Origin: Bacteroidota bacterium
GTDB lineage: Bacteria > Bacteroidota > Bacteroidia > Bacteroidales > ML635J-15
DNA length: 64,000 bases
Direction of reading: 5' to 3'
NCBI GenBank assembly: GCA_029558535.1
Contig: JAKQEK010000372.1
Location: 1 to 64,000 of the forward strand
Made by a program: the position numbers and the translations under genes. The notes beneath the pieces are model-generated. The model was not told the origin of the DNA and made no database searches. It saw nothing but the letters and a program-made list of their open reading frames with translations. This document shows positions 2,921 to 38,453 of the stretch, in pieces. Numbering within the stretch: the stretch's first letter is position 1; every line of letters begins with the position of its first letter.

Positions 2921-3499
2921 TTATCTGTTAAATAAAATTCCTATTTGAAAAACGGGGCAAAAATACAAATCATTTTTATTATAGAATGCCCCTAAACAAA
3001 TTAGTTGCGAAGTTAAAGCAATTTTCTCTGTCATCAGATAATCAAAACTAAATATCGGATATCCAACCCAAGCTTTGTAACTGTAATAATCGGCATCTGA
3101 AAGTAATACTCCGTTCTGCGACTGTATATGTAAATTTTTTATTTTACCCTTACCAACGCTTAGTGCTGCACAAAAACGAAATTTATTTTTCGAATATGTA
3201 TAACCCAACATAGGTCCTCCATAGCCTAAAGTAATGTAAGAATTGTCTGACTCAAGGGATTTGTAATTTGTTTTTTGATTGCCACCAATAATTCCCAAAC
3301 AAATGTGGTCTTTTATGTAAAATCTTAAAATTCCTCCTATACCAAATCCTAAAGTTTCAATTTTTTGATGAGGATTCTGAGCAATTGTAAATCCCGGTTG
3401 CAAAAACAACATGCCACCGCTGTACATTGGTTTTCTATCCTGAGAAAAGCAGAATAAGTTTAAATAGATTAAAATTGAAAACAGAATAAGTTTTTTCAT
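2921..3499 (-). CDS. secreted envelope protein, probable outer-membrane beta-barrel
   Basis: The family is not recognised. A clear signal peptide (MKKLILFSILIYLNLFCFSQ, cleavage probably after CFS) precedes about 170 residues of short alternating strands rich in Gly, Tyr and Phe. These end in the hydrophobic strand FCPVFQIGILFNR, which is a beta-barrel-like C-terminus. That suggests a small eight-stranded outer-membrane protein. Its ATG overlaps the stop of the MORN-repeat gene by one base (TAATG), so the two are translationally coupled and may act together at the cell surface. Confidence 0.6.
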   Translation of the reverse strand: MKKLILFSILIYLNLFCFSQDRKPMYSGGMLFLQPGFTIAQNPHQKIETLGFGIGGILRFYIKDHICLGIIGGNQKTNYKSLESDNSYITLGYGGPMLGYTYSKNKFRFCAALSVGKGKIKNLHIQSQNGVLLSDADYYSYKAWVGYPIFSFDYLMTEKIALTSQLICLGAFYNKNDLYFCPVFQIGILFNR

Positions 3500-7942: not shown

Positions 7943-9018
7943 TTTCGAGATTTTTTAAAATTATTTTTAAGCCAACCAGGAGTAATTATTGCTCCAATTA
8001 TTAAATAAGGGTAATATGTAACTAATCTCCATATTAACGCCATAATTACGACAAAACCTGCAACAGGAACAAAATCAGCCATATATGTTGTAAAAACTGT
8101 TTCAACAAAGCCACTTCCACCTGGTGTAGGCATAACTAACATTAGTATCCACATTACTAATTGTCTGGCAAAAATGAGAAAATGTTCAAAAACGTTTATA
8201 GTTTGATCTCCCGATTCTATTGAAACCATCATTGCCAGTAAAAGAAAATTAAGAACACAATATCTTGCTGTCCACGAAATAAATGTTGAAAATACTGATT
8301 TTAGCCAAAAACTGAAATGTTTCTTTTTCAGTTCTTTATTTGCAATAAAGAAATCTTTTGCCATTTGATCTGCTCCCTGACTCCATTTTCTTAAAAAACG
8401 AAGTTTAAAAATGGCTTTCACTAGTTTAGTAAAAAACTTTGGATTTATAAACAGAGAATATGCCATCAGCAAAGTCCAGCTTAATTTTAAGCTATATCCA
8501 ATAATAGCAAAAGACAACAGATGATTGTAAACATAGCCACTATCTCCCGATGGGAATAGCTGGGAAGAAGAAAACAGCAGGATTATTGACGGGAACATTA
8601 TTGTAAAATACAACTCGTCTAAAAAAGAAGTTGCCATCACAATCGAAGTGCTTTTTCCAATACTTAATCCTTCCTTCCATAAAAAGATTGTTGCTATAGC
8701 TGTTCCCCCAATTGCTGACGGAGTAATTGCTGATCCAAATTCCCACAAAAAGACAATCTTTATACACTGTACCCATGTCAATTCTCCGCCTGATAATATT
8801 CTCATTCTTAGAACGTAACCAAAGTCACGGAAAAACAACATCCCAAAAGCGCATATAAAAAAAATAAAACTTAACTGAGTTATAGCAAACAATGAAAAAT
8901 CGATTTTATTAAAATCTCGATAAACAAACCATGCAATAATTCCTAGCCCAATTACGATTGGTAATATTACTTTGCTAGATTTAAAACTATTTAATGATGT
9001 TTTATCAAATTTTCGCAT
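7939..9018 (-). CDS. lysylphosphatidylglycerol synthase TM-domain family protein
   Basis: A 359-residue polytopic membrane protein of the flippase-like LPG_synthase_TM family (formerly UPF0104). About eight to nine hydrophobic segments are visible. Family landmarks include LFFRDFGYVLRMRIL, FLWEFGSAITPSAIGG and, late, LMLVMPTPGGSGFVETVF. Only the membrane part is present and there is no C-terminal aminoacyl-transferase domain. A lipid- or glycolipid-translocation role is therefore more likely than lysyl transfer. It is coupled to rpiB by a 4-base overlap, and it diverges from kdsB, the LPS-sugar gene. Confidence 0.8.
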   Translation of the reverse strand: MRKFDKTSLNSFKSSKVILPIVIGLGIIAWFVYRDFNKIDFSLFAITQLSFIFFICAFGMLFFRDFGYVLRMRILSGGELTWVQCIKIVFLWEFGSAITPSAIGGTAIATIFLWKEGLSIGKSTSIVMATSFLDELYFTIMFPSIILLFSSSQLFPSGDSGYVYNHLLSFAIIGYSLKLSWTLLMAYSLFINPKFFTKLVKAIFKLRFLRKWSQGADQMAKDFFIANKELKKKHFSFWLKSVFSTFISWTARYCVLNFLLLAMMVSIESGDQTINVFEHFLIFARQLVMWILMLVMPTPGGSGFVETVFTTYMADFVPVAGFVVIMALIWRLVTYYPYLIIGAIITPGWLKNNFKKSRK

Positions 9019-9091
9019 AAATACAAAATAAAACTATTTATTACGATTATCAATAATAAAAGATTAAAATTGATTATTTTTAAGGCAAAAT

Positions 9092-9847
9092 TTGATTATG
9101 GATTTTATTGCGATTATACCTGCAAGATATGCATCAACTCGTTTTCCGGGGAAACCATTGATAAATATTAACGGTAAAACAATGGTGCATAATGTTTATA
9201 TTCAGGCAAAAAAAGTTTTTAATGATGTTTATGTCGCGACTGATGATGATAGAATTTATAATGCTGTTGTCGATTTTGGAGGAAAGGTTGTGATGACAAA
9301 ACGAAAACATAAAAGTGGCACTGACAGATGTTCTGAAGCAATTGAAAAAATAGAAGAATTAGAAGGCAGAAGTTGGGATGTGATAGTTAACATTCAAGGA
9401 GACGAACCATTTATAAAAACGGAGCAACTTACTGAAATAAAGAAATGTTTTAAGCAGAAGAAAAATCAGATAGCAACTTTAGTCAAACCTATCAACAACA
9501 AAGATGATATTTTCAATCCAAACAAACCAAAAGTAGTTATTAATAATAAAAATGAGGCAATATACTTTAGCAGATCTCCCATACCTTATCTTCGTGGAAT
9601 AAATGAAAACAAATGGATTTCAAAGCACTTGTATTACAAACATATTGGGCTGTATGCATATCGTAAAGAAGTACTGAAGGAAATTACCTGTTTAAAACCT
9701 TCATTACTTGAATTGGCAGAAAGTTTGGAACAACTAAGATGGATAGAAAACGGATATAAAATTAAAGTCTCATTTACGGAACATGAGAGCATATCAATTG
9801 ATACCCCGAAAGATTTAGAAAAAATTAAACAAGTAGGATTGTTGTAA
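9092..9847 (+). CDS. kdsB: 3-deoxy-manno-octulosonate cytidylyltransferase
   Basis: Activates KDO as CMP-KDO for lipopolysaccharide inner-core synthesis. The 251-residue protein has the usual length. It begins with the nucleotide-binding signature AIIPARYASTRFPGKPL, followed by VATDDDRI, the metal-binding NIQGDEPFI and, later, FSRSPIPYLR. The C-terminal ESISIDTPKDLEK is also typical. Its stop overlaps the start of the next gene by one base (TAATG), which puts KDO activation and a glycosyltransferase in the same operon. Confidence 0.97.
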   Translation: MIMDFIAIIPARYASTRFPGKPLININGKTMVHNVYIQAKKVFNDVYVATDDDRIYNAVVDFGGKVVMTKRKHKSGTDRCSEAIEKIEELEGRSWDVIVNIQGDEPFIKTEQLTEIKKCFKQKKNQIATLVKPINNKDDIFNPNKPKVVINNKNEAIYFSRSPIPYLRGINENKWISKHLYYKHIGLYAYRKEVLKEITCLKPSLLELAESLEQLRWIENGYKIKVSFTEHESISIDTPKDLEKIKQVGLL

Positions 9848-10974
9848 TGAATATTGCGGTAAATGCCAGGTTATTACTTAAGAATAAACTCGAAGGAATC
9901 GGGTGGTTTAGTTATGAAACCCTGAAAAGAATAACCAAAGAACATCCCGAGCATAAATTCTTTTTCATTTTTGATAGACAATATAGCCCTGAATTTATTT
10001 TTTCTGAAAATGTAATCCCTATTGTTGCCGGACCTCCAACACGACATCCTGTTTTATGGTATATTTGGTTTGAATATGTAGTACCGAGAGTTTTAAAAAG
10101 AATAAATGCGGATATTTTTGTTTCTACAGATGGTTTCATTTCGCTAAAAGCAAAGATTCCTCAGGTTAGTATTATTCATGATATAAATTTTGTTCATAAT
10201 CCTGAACAATTGCCATATTTTGTTCGCAAGTATTATAATTATTTTTTTCCAAAATATGCCAAAAAAGCTGCAAGCATAGGAACGGTTTCCGAATATTCGA
10301 AAAGAGATATCTGTGAAACATTTAACGTTAATCCGGATTTGATTACAGTTTGTTACAATGGTTCCAATTCGGTTTATACACCTTTGGCAGATGTCGAAAA
10401 AAATGAGGTAAAAACTGCATATACAAGTGGGCAGGATTATTTCATTTTCGTTGGTGCTTTTACACCAAGAAAGAACATTCCGGGATTATTAAAATCATTT
10501 GAGATTTATAAATCATCAGGGAGCTATACTCAAAAACTTGTGATTGTTGGATCCGAATTGCATAAAATGGTGGATATTAGAAAAACACTGGATACCATGG
10601 TGTATAAGGATGATGTAATATTCACCGGAAGGCTTGATTTAGAATCTTTGCATAAGTATCTTGGGTCAGCCTTGGCTTTGGTTTATATCCCATTTTTTGA
10701 AGGATTTGGCATCCCATTAGTCGAAGCAATGTATTGTGAAGTCCCTATAATATCTGGCGACAGAACATCTCTTCCTGAAGTAGTTGGAGAAGCAGCTTTA
10801 ATTTGTTCACCTGAAGATCATAAAAAAGTCGCTTATTATATGGCAGAATTAGTTAATAATCCAAAGTTAAGAGATTCTCTAATCGAAAAAGCCAAAGTAC
10901 AAAGAGAAATGTTTTCTTGGGATAAGTCAGCACAAAGGTTATGGCAGTGTATCGAAAAAGTAATACAATCCTAG
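9847..10974 (+). CDS. glycosyltransferase family 4 (GT-B fold)
   Basis: A 375-residue GT4-type glycosyltransferase. The N-terminal half carries the acceptor domain, with the basic RKYYNYFFPKYAKKA and the interdomain SEYSKRDICE. The C-terminal half shows the donor-sugar domain with FVGAFTPRKNIPGLL and the E-x7-E region FEGFGIPLVEAMYCEVPII (about residues 280-300). It probably adds a sugar to LPS or another surface glycan, since it is translationally coupled to kdsB. Donor and acceptor cannot be told from the sequence. Confidence 0.88.
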   Translation: MNIAVNARLLLKNKLEGIGWFSYETLKRITKEHPEHKFFFIFDRQYSPEFIFSENVIPIVAGPPTRHPVLWYIWFEYVVPRVLKRINADIFVSTDGFISLKAKIPQVSIIHDINFVHNPEQLPYFVRKYYNYFFPKYAKKAASIGTVSEYSKRDICETFNVNPDLITVCYNGSNSVYTPLADVEKNEVKTAYTSGQDYFIFVGAFTPRKNIPGLLKSFEIYKSSGSYTQKLVIVGSELHKMVDIRKTLDTMVYKDDVIFTGRLDLESLHKYLGSALALVYIPFFEGFGIPLVEAMYCEVPIISGDRTSLPEVVGEAALICSPEDHKKVAYYMAELVNNPKLRDSLIEKAKVQREMFSWDKSAQRLWQCIEKVIQS

Positions 10975-31863: not shown

Positions 31864-32739
31864 ATGGCGGGACTTAAAGATATAAGAAACAGAATAACTT
31901 CGGTAAAATCAACCCGACAGATAACTTCTGCCATGAAAATGGTATCAGCAGCTAAATTAAAAAAGGCTCAGGATAGAGTTATACAGATTCGCCCTTATGC
32001 AACGAAATTAAAGGAGGTTTTAACAGAGGTAAGTTCAAGCCTGGATAAAAACCATGCAGGCATTTTTAACGAAAATCGTAAAACCGAAAATGTCCTTATA
32101 GTATTGATGGCTTCGAATAGAGGATTGTGTGGAGCATTTAACTCAAATATCTGCAAAAAATCAATACAGCACATTAAAGATAATTATTCTGCCCTGGCTG
32201 AAAATAATAAAGTTAAATTTTATTGTATTGGGAAAAAGGCTGTTGATTTTATTAAGAAAACAGAATTTGAAATTATTGATACAGGAAACGAAATTTTTGA
32301 TGATTTGAAGTTTGCCAATACAAATATTATTGCGGGTAAATTAATGAAGCATTTTAAAGATAAAACTTTTGATAAAATAGATATTGTTTATAATAGTTTT
32401 AAAAATGCTGCAGTGCACGATCAAAAAGTAGAAACTTTTCTTCCAATGTCGCTGGAAATAGAAGAGAGGGCTAATCCTTCCGAATATATTTTTGAACCGG
32501 GTGTGGATAAAATAATCGAAGAAATGATTCCAAAATCCTTAAAAATTCAATTATTCAGATCTATACTTGACAGTAATGCAGCAGAACATGGAGCCAGAAT
32601 GACGGCAATGCATCAGGCAACAGATAATGCTTCAGAACTTATAAAAGACCTTACTTTAATGTACAATAAAGCCCGTCAGGCTGCAATTACAAGCGAGATT
32701 CTTGAAATTACCAGTGGAGCAGAGGCTCTTAAAGGATAA
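31864..32739 (+). CDS. atpG: ATP synthase F1 subunit gamma
   Basis: The 291-residue central rotor shaft. It shows the N-terminal helix GLKDIRNRITSVKSTRQITSAM, the middle SNRGLCGAFNSN and the C-terminal AEHGARMTAMHQATDNASEL. It is the last gene of the plus-strand ATP synthase cluster, followed directly by a terminator. Confidence 0.97.
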   Translation: MAGLKDIRNRITSVKSTRQITSAMKMVSAAKLKKAQDRVIQIRPYATKLKEVLTEVSSSLDKNHAGIFNENRKTENVLIVLMASNRGLCGAFNSNICKKSIQHIKDNYSALAENNKVKFYCIGKKAVDFIKKTEFEIIDTGNEIFDDLKFANTNIIAGKLMKHFKDKTFDKIDIVYNSFKNAAVHDQKVETFLPMSLEIEERANPSEYIFEPGVDKIIEEMIPKSLKIQLFRSILDSNAAEHGARMTAMHQATDNASELIKDLTLMYNKARQAAITSEILEITSGAEALKG

Positions 32740-32745
32740 AAAATT

Positions 32746-32770
32746 AAAACCGGCTGAGTCCGGTTTTTTT
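32746..32770 (+). terminator. terminator of the atpBEFHAG operon
   Basis: AAAACCGG (32746-32753) pairs with CCGGTTTT around a 6-nt loop, followed by a T run. It lies 7 bases after the atpG stop. Confidence 0.88.
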
Positions 32771-32892
32771 ATTTAAACTAATTAACTCCGTATTCATAAA
32801 ATAAATGTGATACAACGAAATAAGTTTTATTATTGTCTGAAGGTTGTATTCCGATTTGATAATTTTCTTTGAACTAAATAAAACAATTTGCC

Positions 32893-34542
32893 ATGAAAAA
32901 GATTTTAATAGTATCAGTTTTAGTAATATATTGTTGTCTGAACGTGTTCGGACAGTGTTCTAACCCTGATTGCGGAGAAGATTTAGACGTGTGCGGACAA
33001 ACCGCTGATTTGACTGTAATTAGTGCAACCACAGGATTTTGGTCAGCCTATTTAGATGGAACTCCTGCCACAGTTTCATTTATACCTGACAATACCAGTA
33101 CTTCAGTTGAAATTACTATTGGAGAGTTTACAGAGCCATTGTTACAGTTAGAATTTGTATGGATAGACCAAAGCGGTCCATGTACAGATACAGTTTTAGT
33201 GAATTTTTATCAAAAACCTGAAGCTTTTGCAGGTGAAGATGATGCTGTTTGTGGGAATCATTATGTATTTGGGGCGGAATTCAGCATACCCGAATCGGAA
33301 AATTATATTCCATCAGGAGTATGGTCTTATGGATCAGGTCCTGTTGGGGATATGTGTGATATAAGTGCTCCTGATAGTAATAATTCTGGGGTGCTTGTCT
33401 CAGGTGTCGGGATATGGAGTTTTTGCAGGATAGAAACGAATAGTATGTTACCGTCTTGTTATTCCATAGATACCGTTCAGGTAGAATTTGTCGAAATACC
33501 GGTTGTATATGCGGGAAACGACAAGGATGTTTGCGGACCTTGTGCACAGCTAGAAGGTGTTAGTGCCGGATTTGTAGGATCATGGATGCCAAATGGGGCG
33601 GCTTATGATGATTATTCTGACCAAAATACAGAGGCATGCGTAAGTGTTTACGGGTCAAAATCATTTATCTGGCTCGAATCAAACAGTGCGTTGACTAGTT
33701 CATTAGGTTGTTCAGATTTAGACACGGTAGTAATTACTTTTTGGAGAATACCGACTGCCAATATTTTAACTGATGAAGCAGATTCTACAGTTTGTGGATT
33801 GACATTTGATCATCTTAGGGCAGAAAACCCTGGAACTGGCATTTATGGTCATTGGTGGAATGAGAATCCAGCAGTCATTTTTACACCATTGAATTTAGAA
33901 ACCTCCGTTACAGTTCCAAGTTATGGATATCACGACTTTTACTGGATTGAGGAATCCCGACCTGAATACATGCCAAATGGATGGTGTGCTGACACCGCCG
34001 GTCCTTTAACTATTCACTTTCTTAACGAGCATCCAATACATGCAGGGTTTGATCATGATGTTTTTGGATTTGAAGGCGAATTAACTGGCTCTTCAATAAC
34101 TGAAACAGACCATTATGCCGATTGTAATTACTTATGGATTTGCAATGATGCGGATATTGAATCAAATACTTCACTGCAGACTAGCGTCATAGTTGGCGGA
34201 TATGGAATATATGAATTTATTCTAGTTTCGCAGTATGTAAATATGTATAGTTGTACAGATGCAGACACTGTTAAAATAAACTTCAGGGATCCGATATACA
34301 TTGGGGTTATTGAAATGGGGAAAGGTGATTTCGATGTTTTTCCAAATCCTGCAGATAATTATATCACAATCTTGTCGGACAAAATTATTAATTCAGTTCA
34401 AATATTCGATATCAATGGTAAATTACTGAAATCTGTATCAGATAACTATGAGGATATTGATATTTCCGATTTTGGACAGGGGATGTATTTTATCTTGATT
34501 AATACTGATGATGAGGTTTTAAAGAGAAAGTTTGTGAGATAG
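32893..34542 (+). CDS. secreted multi-module protein with T9SS sorting domain
   Basis: A 549-residue protein with a signal peptide (MKKILIVSVLVIYCCLNVFG). Five related modules of about 90 residues begin near residues 27, 113, 206, 294 and 383. The first four open with a motif like AGxDxxVCG, and the modules continue with a strand pattern containing W/F and end in a short C.D.DTV..F strand. They look like Ig-like or PKD-like domains stabilised by cysteines; the fifth lacks the C of VCG. The last about 75 residues form a type A T9SS tail (VFPNPADNY...SVQIFDINGKLLKS...DISDFGQGMYFILI). It is a large adhesin-like surface or extracellular protein. Confidence 0.75.
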   Translation: MKKILIVSVLVIYCCLNVFGQCSNPDCGEDLDVCGQTADLTVISATTGFWSAYLDGTPATVSFIPDNTSTSVEITIGEFTEPLLQLEFVWIDQSGPCTDTVLVNFYQKPEAFAGEDDAVCGNHYVFGAEFSIPESENYIPSGVWSYGSGPVGDMCDISAPDSNNSGVLVSGVGIWSFCRIETNSMLPSCYSIDTVQVEFVEIPVVYAGNDKDVCGPCAQLEGVSAGFVGSWMPNGAAYDDYSDQNTEACVSVYGSKSFIWLESNSALTSSLGCSDLDTVVITFWRIPTANILTDEADSTVCGLTFDHLRAENPGTGIYGHWWNENPAVIFTPLNLETSVTVPSYGYHDFYWIEESRPEYMPNGWCADTAGPLTIHFLNEHPIHAGFDHDVFGFEGELTGSSITETDHYADCNYLWICNDADIESNTSLQTSVIVGGYGIYEFILVSQYVNMYSCTDADTVKINFRDPIYIGVIEMGKGDFDVFPNPADNYITILSDKIINSVQIFDINGKLLKSVSDNYEDIDISDFGQGMYFILINTDDEVLKRKFVR

Positions 34543-34624
34543 TCAAGTCGAAATGGATTGTTTTAGAATCCAGTTTCTATAATTTGAGTAAGCTTGAGCC
34601 TTTTTGAAGTTGAGAAAACTTAAT

Positions 34625-34688
34625 AATCCTAATAGAACTTTCTAAAACCAATAATTTTTCTCACTTCTTTCAGCGTTTTTGAGGCACT
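34625..34688 (-). repeat. 64-bp direct repeat, left copy, of the trpS 3' end
   Basis: This 64-base segment matches 36331-36394 (the 3' end of the intact trpS) at 61 of 64 positions, with all three differences being transitions. The match begins just past the TAG stop on the 3' side and breaks off abruptly after the codons for SASKTL. Two of the three differences are silent and one changes Glu to Lys. The two copies are in the same orientation and bracket the AAA-ATPase gene. Confidence 0.9.
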
Positions 34689-34733
34689 TGCGTAAGTATT
34701 CTTATTGCCAAGTTTCATAGCTTTACTGAGCAT
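34629..34733 (-). pseudogene. remnant of a trpS 3' end
   Basis: Read in the trpS frame the left repeat encodes ASASKTLKEVRKIIGFRKFY and a TAG stop, almost the same C-terminus as the intact TrpS. The upstream 14 codons, from the ATG at 34733 (MLSKAMKLGN), do not match the intact trpS. The short reading frame has no promoter or obvious function. It is best read as a leftover C-terminal fragment joined to unrelated sequence. The rest of 34543-34889 (a 347-base gap) is AT-rich and holds only this remnant and a -7 box at 34860-34867. Confidence 0.8.
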
Positions 34734-34859
34734 GTGTTGTTTGTAAATTATTGTTTTTTTGAGATGCTTTATTAAACAATTAGCAGCTGTCCAGAAAAGA
34801 AAAGTCAATGTAAATCATGAAATGTGTAAATTTATATCATGCGATAAGATAAAAATATG

Positions 34860-34867
34860 TATATTTG
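34860..34867 (+). promoter_or_regulatory. candidate -7 box of the ATPase gene
   Basis: TATATTTG lies 23 bases before the ATG of the AAA-ATPase gene. No TTG sits at the usual -33 distance. Confidence 0.4.
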
Positions 34868-34889
34868 TAGCGAAATATAAATCTGTGTT

Positions 34890-36302
34890 ATGAATAAAAT
34901 AATTGGAAGAGAAGTCGAAAAGGAAGAACTGCTTTCCTGTTATAATTCTGATAATTCAGAATTTTTGGCAGTTTACGGAAGGCGAAGAGTTGGCAAAACC
35001 TATTTAATAAATACATTCTTTAAGGATAAATTTGATTTTCAACTAACCGGTTTGGCTAATGCAAGTTTTAAAGAGCAGTTGAAAAACTTTAATTTTGCTA
35101 TAAACAAATATTCCGGTGTTGAAAACAATCTGGCAGAATCGTGGTATGATGCGTTTTCTCAACTAATCAAACTGCTTGAAAAGAAGAAAAGTAAGAAAAA
35201 AGTAATATTTATTGATGAATTACCGTGGTTGGATACAAGAAAGTCAGGATTTTTAACTGCATTTGAGCATTTCTGGAATGGTTGGGCAGCAAGCCGCAAT
35301 GATATTTTGTTAATAGTTTGCGGATCGGCAACATCCTGGATGATAACCAGATTAATTAATAATAGAGGAGGTTTACATAATCGAATCACAAGAAGAATAA
35401 AATTATTGCCATTTAACTTGAAAGAAACTGAAGAGTACTTAAATTATAATGGTATCAAATGGAATCGTCATCAAATAATCGAAAGTTATATGATTTTTGG
35501 TGGGATACCTTATTATTTAAGTCTGATAAAGAAGGGGAAAAGCCTATCACAAACCGTAGATGATTTGTTTTTTAAGCAAAATGGAATATTGCGAGATGAG
35601 TACAAAAATCTTTACTCATCACTTTTTACAAATTATGAAAGTTACGAGAAAATTGTTGAAGCTTTAGGGAAAAAATCGAAAGGGTTGTCGCGTGAAGAAA
35701 TATTAAATCATACTGGTTTATCTGATGGTGGAGGTTTTTCAAAAATGCTTGAAGAATTGGAGCAATGTGACTTTATTCGAAAATACAATGCGATAGATAA
35801 AAAGCTAAGAGAAGGGTTATATCAATTGACAGACTTTTACACATTATTTTACTTCAAATTTGTTTTGCAAAATAGTTTCAAAGAAGAAAATTTCTGGACT
35901 ACTTCCATAGATTCCTCTCAGCACAGAGCGTGGACGGGTTATGCTTTTGAGCAGGTATGTATGGCACATGTCCACCAAATTAGAAAAAAGCTTGGGATAT
36001 CAGGTGTTCAGTGTAAAATTGCATCGTGGAGAAGTAAAAGCAGTTCACCTAATGTTCAGATTGATTTAGTAATTGAACGAAAAGACCAAGTGATAAATAT
36101 ATGCGAGATGAAATTTTCTCTGAATGAATTTGAAATTAATAAGAGTTACAGTAATTCACTCATTAATAAATTAAGTTCATTCAGAAATGAAACTGGAACA
36201 AAAAGCGCAGTACACCTTACGATGATAACTACTTATGGAGTTAAGCATAACGAATACTATGATATTGTTCAAAGTGAAGTTGTTGCTGCTGATCTATTCT
36301 AA
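34890..36302 (+). CDS. AAA ATPase with C-terminal nuclease-fold domain (DUF234 type)
   Basis: A 470-residue protein of the ATPase family that is often amplified in Bacteroidota and archaea. The N-terminal ATPase part carries Walker A GRRRVGKT (30-37), Walker B VIFIDELPWLD (about 104-114) and a sensor-like IVCGSATSWM. A winged-helix-like middle (about 255-310) follows. The C-terminal region has a PD-(D/E)xK-like pattern, with an Asp in QIDLVIER and the E-x-K of CEMKFS (about residues 390-410). No integrase, toxin or target-recognition partner lies beside it. The function is unknown. The gene sits between two direct repeats of the trpS 3' end. Confidence 0.85.
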   Translation: MNKIIGREVEKEELLSCYNSDNSEFLAVYGRRRVGKTYLINTFFKDKFDFQLTGLANASFKEQLKNFNFAINKYSGVENNLAESWYDAFSQLIKLLEKKKSKKKVIFIDELPWLDTRKSGFLTAFEHFWNGWAASRNDILLIVCGSATSWMITRLINNRGGLHNRITRRIKLLPFNLKETEEYLNYNGIKWNRHQIIESYMIFGGIPYYLSLIKKGKSLSQTVDDLFFKQNGILRDEYKNLYSSLFTNYESYEKIVEALGKKSKGLSREEILNHTGLSDGGGFSKMLEELEQCDFIRKYNAIDKKLREGLYQLTDFYTLFYFKFVLQNSFKEENFWTTSIDSSQHRAWTGYAFEQVCMAHVHQIRKKLGISGVQCKIASWRSKSSSPNVQIDLVIERKDQVINICEMKFSLNEFEINKSYSNSLINKLSSFRNETGTKSAVHLTMITTYGVKHNEYYDIVQSEVVAADLF

Positions 36303-36330
36303 GGATATTCGAAATTGAGATTAATTTCTG

Positions 36331-36394
36331 AATCCTAATAGAACTTTCTAAAACCAATAATTTCTCTTACTTCTTTCAGTGTTTTTGAGGCACT
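36331..36394 (-). repeat. 64-bp direct repeat, right copy, at the trpS 3' end
   Basis: The right member of the repeat pair, 1,706 bases from the left copy. It includes the authentic trpS stop codon (36335-36337) and the last 19 codons. The ATPase stop lies 28 bases before the repeat, so the space between the repeats is almost filled by the one gene. Confidence 0.9.
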
Positions 36395-37327
36395 CTCTCT
36401 GGCTTTTTCGGCTCCTTGTTTTGCCACTTTTGCTAAAAACTTATTATCCGAATCAATCTCTTTAATTTTTTTGCTTATCGGGGCAATCATTTTAATAACA
36501 TCTTCGGCAAGTTGCTTTTTTAGGTCTCCATAGCGGATTTCACAACTTGCATACTTTTCTCTGAAAAATTTAACAGTATCAGGAGTAGAAACAATATCCA
36601 TAATTGTAAACAGATTGGAGATAACTTCCGGCATTTGAGAATTTGGTTCGGTTGGTCCGGCATCTGTTACTGCTTTCATTATTTTTTTACGGATTACAGA
36701 TTCGTCATCAGCTAAAAATATTCCATTTCCTTCTGATTTTCCCATTTTGCCAGTTCCGTCGAGTCCGGGAATTTTTACAAGTTCTTTACCGAAATTATAT
36801 GCAACAGGTTCTTTGAAATATTCGACACTGTACATATTATTGAAACGGCGTGCAAATTTTCGTGCCATTTCGAGATTTTGCTCCTGGTCTTTTCCGACAG
36901 GTACTTTATCAGCATGATGTATTATAATGTCAGCAGCCATTAAAACCGGATAAGTAAGAAGTCCTGCATTTACATTTTCGGGTTGTTTTCTTGCTTTATC
37001 TTTAAATGAGGTTGTGCGTTCCAATTCGCCCAAATAGGCATTCATGTTAAGTAAAAGATACAATTCAGCTATTTCGGGAACATCACTTTGAATATACAAT
37101 GTTGATTTTTCAGGATCAATTCCCGCAGCGAGATATTCAACCAGTACTTGTCGAACCGATTTATGAAGGTCTTCCGGATGAGGATGTGTTGTTAGGGAAT
37201 GAAAATCTGCAATAAAAAAGAAACATTTGTTGTTTTGCTGCATTTTTACAAAATTCTGCACAGCACCCAAATAGTTGCCTAAATGTAAATTGCCTGTTGA
37301 TCTTATTCCACTTAATACTGTTTCCAT
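36335..37327 (-). CDS. trpS: tryptophan-tRNA ligase
   Basis: Charges tRNA-Trp. The 330-residue class I synthetase has the start METVLSGIRSTGNLHLGNYL, which holds the HIGH-type motif GNLHLGN, then FFIADFHSLTTHP. The KMSKS-type motif is KMGKSEGNGIF, and the conserved C-terminus is TLKEVREIIGFRKFY. A 21-residue longer reading from 37390 is rejected, because a -7 promoter box (37348-37355) lies inside it. Its 3' end is the source or target of the 64-bp duplication beyond the ATPase gene. Confidence 0.96.
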   Translation of the reverse strand: METVLSGIRSTGNLHLGNYLGAVQNFVKMQQNNKCFFFIADFHSLTTHPHPEDLHKSVRQVLVEYLAAGIDPEKSTLYIQSDVPEIAELYLLLNMNAYLGELERTTSFKDKARKQPENVNAGLLTYPVLMAADIIIHHADKVPVGKDQEQNLEMARKFARRFNNMYSVEYFKEPVAYNFGKELVKIPGLDGTGKMGKSEGNGIFLADDESVIRKKIMKAVTDAGPTEPNSQMPEVISNLFTIMDIVSTPDTVKFFREKYASCEIRYGDLKKQLAEDVIKMIAPISKKIKEIDSDNKFLAKVAKQGAEKARESASKTLKEVREIIGFRKFY

Positions 37328-37347
37328 AACTAATGTTTTAATAGTCG

Positions 37348-37355
37348 CAAAGATA
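37348..37355 (-). promoter_or_regulatory. candidate -7 box of trpS
   Basis: On the minus strand TATCTTTG at 37348-37355 lies 20 bases before the trpS start. The -33 region is weak, with TTTAG instead of TTG at about the right place. Confidence 0.5.
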
Positions 37356-37380
37356 GAGAAAAAAAAGTGTCTAAAGTTCC

Positions 37381-37414
37381 GAAGAATCAAAAATCTAGAT
37401 TTTTGTTATTCTTC
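37381..37414. repeat. 34-bp inverted repeat upstream of trpS
   Basis: A perfect 18-base palindrome (CAAAAATC-TAGA centre) is flanked by GAAGAAT on the left and ATTCTTC on the right, with a 2-nt bulge. It lies about 26 bases upstream of the trpS -7 box. It could be a regulator's operator or a small hairpin. Two further copies of AACGAGGGTTTA (37425-37436 and 37484-37495) lie next to it, one of them able to pair with AAATCCTCG (37440-37448). Nothing else is seen in the 37328-37586 gap. Confidence 0.6.
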
Positions 37415-37586
37415 GCGCCCCGTAAACGAGGGTTTAGAAAAATCCTCGAAAAAATATAAAATTGCTGTGTCGCGATTATATTTAACGAGGGTTTAAAAAG
37501 AAAAAATTAGAATTTGCTTTCTTTGATTAAGCAATTTCTGTTTTTTCGGGATGCCTAAAGTGTACTAAAATGCCTAAAGTTGTTTG

Positions 37587-38453
37587 TTACTGTTTTATTA
37601 ATCTTACAAAATAGCCGTGGTCTATTACATTTCCTGAGCTTGACTGACCGAAAACTTTTTCGCAGAAGTCGAATTTGTGTTTGGGGAAATAGGTGAGTAA
37701 CAATCGGTGAATGTATTTATCGTTTATGGAGTGGGAGTATAGGTTCATTATTATAAATGAATTGGATTTCAGGATGATAGCAACATTCTTTAATAAATCG
37801 TCAATCATTTCGTCAAACATCCACTTTTCATTTTTCGCACCGACACCAATTGCCGGAGGATCTAAGATAATCCCGTCATATTTATTGTTACGTTTGATTT
37901 CTCTCAAAACAAATTTTTGAGCATCTTCAACTATGCAGCGGATATTTGTCAAACCTGAATTGTCGGCATTTCGTCTTGTCCAGTCAACAACTTTTTTAAT
38001 TGAATCTATATGTGTGACGGTTTTTGCATAAGCAGCAGCAGCAACACTTGTCAGTCCTGTATAGCCAAACAGATTTAGAATTTCCATTTCAGAAGAACCC
38101 TTAAATTGATTTTCAATGAATTTCCAGTTTAAAACCTGCTCGGGAAATACACCAATATGTTTGGAGTTAGTAAGTGATAATTCGGCAACAATATTGATTT
38201 GCGAAGAGTTATAATTAATAAACCATTTGTCAGGGACATTCTGAAAAAATTTCCATTCGCCAGAATTTTTTGTTTTTTCAATAAATTCGGCATGAGCCAT
38301 CGTATACCATTCACTTTCTGGTATAATCTGATTTGAGTCTGAAGTAATTTCTGGTCTGATAAGAATAATATCTCCAAATCTTTCAAGTTTGCGAAAATTT
38401 CCGCAATCAATAAGTTCGTATTCCGGCCAAATATTGTTGATATTAACTTTCAT
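37587..38453 (-). CDS. class I SAM-dependent methyltransferase, RlmI/RlmK-like
   Basis: A 288-residue methyltransferase. The SAM-binding motif I lies in ILNLFGYTGLTSVAAAAYA. The acidic motif is THIDSIKKVVDWTRRN, and DGIILDPPAIGVG is the DPPA-type motif IV of base methyltransferases. This fits the RlmI-like 23S rRNA cytosine methyltransferase group, but the PUA domain at the N-terminus is not clear. The start at 38453 (MKVNINN) is favoured over 38483 and overlaps the end of the YhbP-like gene by 11 bases. Confidence 0.82.
   Translation of the reverse strand: MKVNINNIWPEYELIDCGNFRKLERFGDIILIRPEITSDSNQIIPESEWYTMAHAEFIEKTKNSGEWKFFQNVPDKWFINYNSSQINIVAELSLTNSKHIGVFPEQVLNWKFIENQFKGSSEMEILNLFGYTGLTSVAAAAYAKTVTHIDSIKKVVDWTRRNADNSGLTNIRCIVEDAQKFVLREIKRNNKYDGIILDPPAIGVGAKNEKWMFDEMIDDLLKNVAIILKSNSFIIMNLYSHSINDKYIHRLLLTYFPKHKFDFCEKVFGQSSSGNVIDHGYFVRLIKQ

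Follow-up and report, generated by a model that had tools for sequence, protein, structure and literature searches.

Why does the 3' end of trpS occur on both sides of a single ATPase gene? The question is posed by a locus in the window, as we call the whole 64,000-nt stretch of contig C214, from a Bacteroidota bacterium, that was analysed. The initial annotation had seen in it the footprint of targeted integration at a gene's 3' end, with a 64-base repeat of the end of trpS enclosing 1.6 kb that hold only one ATPase gene. In our reading, to which we assign a probability of roughly 0.68, the 1.6-kb stretch is a recombinase-less mobile cassette that carries one PDC-S27 ATPase/PD-(D/E)XK gene and was inserted between atpG and trpS (Table 1). 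On this reading trpS stayed intact because the insertion left its 3' end on both sides. The name atpG is one that we assume from operon context.

Table 1. Features of the trpS locus, in coordinates of the window.
Feature	Position	Strand	Basis
atpG (ATP synthase gamma subunit)	31864..32739	+	ORF; tblastx to L032, 75.5%
Gene for a 549-aa protein with a Por secretion tail	32893..34542	+	ORF, domain match
Left repeat: trpS 3' end, displaced or duplicated (the 19 final codons, the stop and 4 nt)	34625..34688	-	Repeat comparison
Left repeat, probable full extent including 3' UTR	34603..34688	-	Gapped alignment
Extension of the left copy with weak TrpS likeness, or end sequence of the cassette	34689..34757	-	Profile and register tests
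Upstream region: degenerate palindrome (34816-34841) and TATATTTG promoter-like sequence	34816..34889	+	By eye
PDC-S27 ATPase, C-terminal PD-(D/E)XK motif	34890..36302	+	ORF, Pfam, PADLOC, alignment
Right repeat = intact trpS 3' end	36331..36394	-	Repeat comparison
trpS, intact, convergent with the ATPase gene, 32 bp between stop codons	36335..37330	-	ORF, family match

Repeat comparison placed the two 64-nt copies (D1) where the initial annotation had put them, in the same orientation and identical at 61 of 64 positions. With one gap allowed, the alignment grows to 87 columns, 76 of them identical, and runs into the trpS 3' UTR, so that the right copy starts about 5 bp past the stop codon of the ATPase gene. 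Searching the 5.8-Mb genome with the DNA of the repeat, a check that had been proposed, returned only the two places in the window (E 4.5e-27 and 3.7e-23), and the pair therefore cannot be attributed to chance. A 37-bp match to the trpS repeat in G009:C29 lies inside another ORF and was taken as chance.

The left copy can indeed still be read in the trpS frame up to a stop codon (...SASKTLKEVRKIIGFRKFY-stop), giving the last 19 TrpS residues with one replacement (E to K) relative to the intact end. Because the nearest relative (G003) has the state of the right copy at all three differing sites, the drift has taken place in the left copy; among nine relatives, its state recurs at one site in one genome. 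The idea that the right copy is foreign donor DNA is unsupported for the window, the derived bases being in the left copy. Outside the 64-nt repeat, the left copy has almost nothing in common with trpS apart from a weak TrpS-like trace up to about position 34757 (profile shuffle P 0.006). Similarity steps from near identity across the last 60 bases to 27 of 69 nt matching in register, a score that 8 of 286 other registers also reach. Between the copies there is one convincing gene, as had been claimed, and the GC content of the insert (0.30-0.34) is unremarkable. No Rfam match was obtained in 32700-37600. By eye, the region upstream of the gene is about where members of group B carry a conserved palindrome.

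The ATPase itself is a full-length match to PADLOC PDC-S27 (PDLC04984, 688 bits, E 1.3e-207, residues 1-470) and passes Pfam ATPase_2 (PF01637; 52.6 bits against a gathering score of 33.2). In an alignment of 41 sequences, composed of the window protein and 40 relatives chosen among 80 loci, the Walker A (G30-T37, G30RRRVGKT37) and Walker B (F107-D109-E110) residues are invariant. Also invariant are D392, E406 and K408, which we take to be the PD-(D/E)XK signature, and the window ATPase carries these predicted nuclease residues. At E 0.01, sequence comparison found no relative in the PDB. The gene is present once in the window's genome, and at least one match at E 0.001 was obtained in 40 of 100 relatives, several of which have 10 to at least 16 matches when distant homologues are counted. 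A mainly viral or plasmid-borne family was considered and rejected: IMG/VR gave one relative in a scan for close relatives, and tblastn matched 8 phage and 138 plasmid records, the best places all being below 60% identity. PDC-S27 is a single-gene phage defence candidate of PADLOC-DB, an ATPase fused to PD-(D/E)XK, and the available text of the source describes most such candidates (PDCs) as lacking experimental validation (PMC12988326). Two recent surveys of prokaryotic immunity count PDC genes among their most frequent entries, as far as the available text of both goes (PMC12988326, PMC13356809). Our sequence data neither support nor exclude a defence role, and PDC-S27 is a candidate only.

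An empty trpS site, which the initial annotation had proposed to look for in relatives, was found in one genome. In G003 (TrpS 92% identical), trpS and atpG are convergent with 54 bp between their stop codons (L348: trpS 8547-9539, atpG 9594-10469), and this gap holds neither the ATPase gene nor an extra copy of the trpS end; in the window, the two genes are 3.6 kb apart. By eye, atpG is followed in both genomes by a hairpin that resembles a terminator. No atpG was seen within the available stretch at the other 28 trpS loci compared, some of them cut short, so the ATPase-free site is an observation from G003 only. The gene for the 549-aa protein is also missing between atpG and trpS in G003 and is probably a separate insertion. 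Its product has 47 matches in the window's genome and 25-57 per genome in 25 genus mates, some of which reflect the shared tail domain only. Separately, G019:C283 (L347 4404-4748) has, besides the full gene, a separate 114-codon in-frame 3' fragment of trpS that directly follows another ORF; no ATPase was found among the ORFs of the 5.3 kb read there, in a genome estimated to be 8% contaminated.

The absence of an integrase also agrees with the earlier observation, in that there is one gene between the repeats and neither tyrosine recombinase (PF00589) nor Y1 transposase (PF01797) matches were found on C214. Elsewhere in the window's genome (G000) these families match at 10 and 5 places, respectively. 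The proposal of targeted insertion is supported in part, by the gene end on both sides, the intact gene, the one-gene unit, the lack of an integrase match, the empty site in G003 and the other cargo at a second gene end described below; an integrase-type mechanism like that at tRNA genes is plausible.

The same picture is presented by a second gene end, where a gene for a 115-aa cupin takes the role of trpS in the family of G037. In G122, a cupin 3' fragment, a PDC-S27-like ATPase gene (product 42% identical to the window ATPase) and the intact cupin gene follow one another, the last two convergent with 8 bp between their stops; G112 has the same ATPase-cupin side as far as the contig end. Other cargo between the same repeats, which had been suggested as a check, turned up at the cupin gene and not at trpS. 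The examples are a DUF4143 ATPase with cupin fragments on both sides (G101 and G109), HicAB (G108), HicAB-like and Phd/YoeB-like pairs (G104) or ORF6N (G101) between a fragment and the intact gene, and Phd/YoeB plus an ATPase enclosed by two fragments (G037), with each cargo family at this site tested on one example. The cupin gene is intact in 16 of 28 genomes. Neither a cupin fragment nor an ATPase was found among the ORFs of the stretches fetched in G126, G124, G119, G120, G117, G118 and G121, where the cupin gene is intact, and no fragment in those from G103, G110 (ended by the contig end) and G125.

Two of these cupin loci have additional features. In L374 (reverse complement 335-1489, G109:C50), direct repeats of 124 columns and 94% identity bracket a DUF4143-type ATPase and overlap the cupin 3' fragments. 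G037 has an 11-kb stretch (L330 5287-16472) in which other genes separate three cupin 3' fragments and the intact cupin gene, an arrangement that looks like stacked insertions at one site.

Most cupin fragments share a breakpoint. Ten of the 11 in the alignment start at one nucleotide, the exception being one of those in G109, and the sequence that precedes them differs. With G112:C725 added, the shared start is seen by eye in 11 of 12 placeable fragments, the start in G122 being too decayed to place. A block test found a step at the breakpoint in 6 of the 9 fragments listed (L336 and L332 are out of register and G122 is decayed). Part of this agreement can be put down to descent of the fragments from a common ancestor. 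By eye, an end sequence near TTTATsTTTCA precedes the fragments beside Phd/YoeB (G037), ORF6N (G101) and the ATPase (G122), and a similar end precedes two fragments beside other genes. The two cupin copies of G122 are sisters in a tree (support 0.999), the free copy being on the longer branch; their final 110 bases have 107 matches and the 61 before them have 40 (P 2.4e-8), a less sharp step than at trpS. Trees of the cupin 5' and 3' parts differ, both built from short sequences.

Presence and absence can also be compared at sites of other kinds. An ATPase gene of G014 (L193) is bracketed by a palindromic sequence whose two copies are identical over 60 bp, and the same junction in G021 has one copy of the palindrome and no ATPase. 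A further similar palindrome, 91% identical over 67 bp, lies directly upstream of the L193 gene, and G018, G023 and G005 are without the stretch that carries this gene in G014. Likewise, a 1.83-kb repeat-ATPase-repeat unit of G018 (L163) is missing from G007, which keeps about 10-20 bp of repeat-like sequence and no whole copy. These pairs do not set the direction of change, and G021, G007 or G003 could have lost the unit.

Flanking repeats are common across the ATPase family. The comparison covered 161 distinct copies whose flanks both exceed 300 bp. Direct repeats scoring above 35 bits in 1200-bp flanks were found in 86 of them, compared with 9 of 482 mismatched left/right flank pairs; the other 75 copies had no repeat above this threshold. 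When 400-bp flanks were used and other genes in the same loci served as controls, repeats above 35 bits bracketed 62/85 ATPases versus 4/189 other genes in the relatives' genomes, and 17/73 versus 5/201 in GTDB contigs. Above 80 bits, the counts were 35/85 and 7/73 for ATPases versus 2/189 and 2/201 for controls, respectively. Where several genomes have a copy at the same site, each copy was counted, so the counts are not independent events. Among the nine control genes with repeats, those in L189, L170 and L097 adjoin an ATPase unit, and the one in L130, which is in the ATPase size class, is probably a second ATPase. These results suggest that a very common candidate anti-phage gene moves as a tiny cassette without an integrase of its own.

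What had seemed to be a second cassette behind the ATPase of L189 and L170 is really a secreted-protein gene fused to an apparent relic of an ATPase start. Proteins of 698 and 689 aa (L276 4590-6686, L277 1825-3894) have in their N-terminus an apparent ATPase-start relic (MENMIGRKAE) behind the same palindromes, and their genes look like a decayed ATPase fused to another gene.

The repeats differ between loci. Most are palindromes, many of them hairpins specific to a subfamily, and some are gene ends or terminators. The upstream hairpin often lies at a promoter-like sequence of the Bacteroidetes type. Repeats formed by the ends of neighbouring ORFs or by terminators were recognised in few of the 161 copies, namely in the window, L078 (the end of an 872-aa ORF plus terminator), L097, L110, L117 and L218. 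The right copy often begins less than 30 bp from the ATPase stop codon, and repeat length varies widely. One group of 15 ATPases has a conserved unit of palindrome, promoter and gene, with repeats above 35 bits only in L078 and L097. Close relatives among the ATPases often stand at places with no shared flanks detected (L107/L108, 97%; L115/L122, 98%; L139/L145, 99%). No overall preference for gene 3' ends or convergent neighbours is evident from the 153 copies with both neighbours (++ 51, +- 38, -+ 35, -- 29). Since most repeats are palindromic and the neighbours stand in all orientations, the 3' end of a gene is just one of several kinds of target, and the notion of trpS as the unit's own special site is not supported.

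REP-like dispersal of the palindromes was also rejected. The palindrome of L107 was found in two of four genomes, once in each and both times beside an ATPase. Another repeat, unit S (L193, L280), has several copies in each locus, and stretches of L193 and L163 are matched at many sites across the genus, yet other genes in the ATPase loci are rarely bracketed. A short repeat with the inner palindrome CTTTCGGATTnCAAATCCGAAAG (L193 5749-5803, with copies in L280 and L281) lies at cassette borders, several per locus, and is possibly a REP-like repeat of the genus.

Among the genes listed of two other families, with few copies and with subjects that included protein alignment rows, repeats above 35 bits flank 1 of 2 DUF4143 and 2 of 7 YhcG genes. 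One YhcG/DUF1016-like nuclease gene (L280), whose homologue in L193 is PDC-S02, lies between 186-column palindromic direct repeats, 88% identical (1952-2137 and 3108-3289), in a hot spot that also holds an ATPase.

How might such a unit move? We propose that the cassette carries a copy of its target sequence, which may be a gene 3' end, a terminator or a palindrome, and that recombination between the carried and the resident copy moves it. Because these two copies recombine, integration would leave two copies of the target, and the original state would return on excision across the repeats. The near-identical block in the window and in G122 would be the segment swapped with the host gene during integration or later, whereas the diverged part of the copy may be an older piece carried by the cassette. 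Recombination could be performed by a factor acting in trans or by host machinery, possibly stimulated by nuclease cutting. Either is likelier than a dedicated recombinase within the cassette because other small cargos use the cupin site, and both are favoured by the single-gene unit and by the lack of a Phage_integrase or Y1 match on C214.

As a special case of this explanation, an enzyme encoded elsewhere, either a site-specific recombinase or a Y1 (REP-type) transposase, might mobilise the cassette in trans; we regard this as possible, with the odds somewhat against it. Different cargos share the cupin breakpoint, Phd/YoeB, ORF6N and the ATPase have a similar TTTATsTTTCA-like end beside them, many repeats are palindromic, and candidate enzymes are at hand (Y1_Tnp in 11/11 genomes searched, Phage_integrase in 8/8). 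However, these families are so widespread that PF00589 was also found in 14/14 control genomes, the cupin fragments may share their breakpoint by descent, and of 61 integrase places found, the 30 whose loci were fetched contain no cupin fragment.

Alternatively, the ATPase-nuclease may transpose itself by making widely staggered cuts in element and target, whose repair would leave target-site duplications of about 40-240 bp. This scheme overlaps with the cassette reading except for the enzyme, and a transposition-like target duplication fits several of the data as well as an integrase-type mechanism does. Such data include the many units that are just the ATPase gene, the right copies within 30 bp of its stop codon, the target that occurs once in G021 and as two identical flanking copies in G014, the sister cupin copies of G122, and the catalytic residues that are invariant in 41 sequences. 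We nevertheless judge it unlikely. Cargos without the ATPase gene have the same cupin breakpoint, and repeat length varies widely. Furthermore, duplication followed by decay would not give the patchy identity of the repeats in G122 (107/110 and then 40/61) and in the window (about 60 nt and then 27/69).

That same patchiness resembles a crossover or gene-conversion tract and speaks for plain homologous (RecA) recombination: a gene 3' end joined to ATPase DNA, arriving by natural transfer and integrating by single crossover, with no dedicated mobility. This account seems to us more doubtful still, since it leaves unexplained the excess of repeats around the ATPase family, the palindromic targets and the shared breakpoint. 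Finally, the trpS 3' end could have been duplicated locally, followed by insertion or decay, and the ATPase would be a bystander. This would suit the derived state of the left copy at 3/3 sites relative to G003 and the second trpS 3' fragment (114 codons) of G019 with no ATPase among the ORFs of 5.3 kb, but it is very improbable given the same arrangement at the cupin gene of G122 and the family-wide repeat counts.

Returning to the cassette reading, a broader and more tentative proposal is that PDC-S27 genes as a whole form a class of minimal mobile cassettes, each a gene with its carried target and no recombinase. They might share one common trans-acting mechanism with DUF4143 ATPases, YhcG nucleases and toxin-antitoxin pairs, and their abundance might come from mobility and not only from defence. 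If PDC-S27 is a mobile cassette, both its abundance and its multi-copy state reflect mobility too, and counts of defence systems need care. The trpS site, the cupin gene and the palindrome of G014 and G021 are concrete sites at which one-gene insertion without an integrase can be followed, and they prompt one to ask how toxin-antitoxin pairs and nucleases can spread when such an enzyme is missing. In the open-licence literature, searched by titles and the beginnings of abstracts, we found no report of integrase-free mobility for PDC-S27, DUF234, PF01637 or DUF4143, or of integration at trpS.

Integrative elements that insert at gene 3' ends, such as those at tRNA genes, orfX/rlmH and others, are well established. 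Like the units of the window and G122, they are bounded by direct repeats, one copy of which is the intact end of the host gene. The units described here differ in having one 1.4-kb gene, no integrase found and no conjugation or phage genes, and in a target that varies by copy. REP/RAYT and IS200/IS605-type elements consist of a single gene bracketed by hairpins, and the ATPase unit is likewise one gene between hairpins, but the gene is not a Y1 transposase. Integron cassettes are small genes separated by direct, often palindromic sites. A likeness to them is found in the stacked stretches L280 and L330, although here the genes have their own promoter-like sequences and the sites are many.

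The pdif/dif modules of Acinetobacter are also small and recombinase-less, some carry toxin-antitoxin genes, and the available text of two accounts attributes their movement to host XerC/XerD (PMC6449649, PMC12907356). Cassettes of the window type share the small size and the lack of a recombinase, whereas their repeats are gene 3' ends and long palindromes. A domain make-up similar to that of the window ATPase, compared by description only, is that of arCOG03166, an AAA+ ATPase fused to HTH and a RecB nuclease, which is a common island gene 'likely involved in defense (or some plasmid gene)' according to the available text of its source (PMC4158269). Accounts of PDC-S27 itself, in the available text of PMC12988326, do not mention flanking repeats or one-gene mobility, whereas many of the members compared here look cassette-like.
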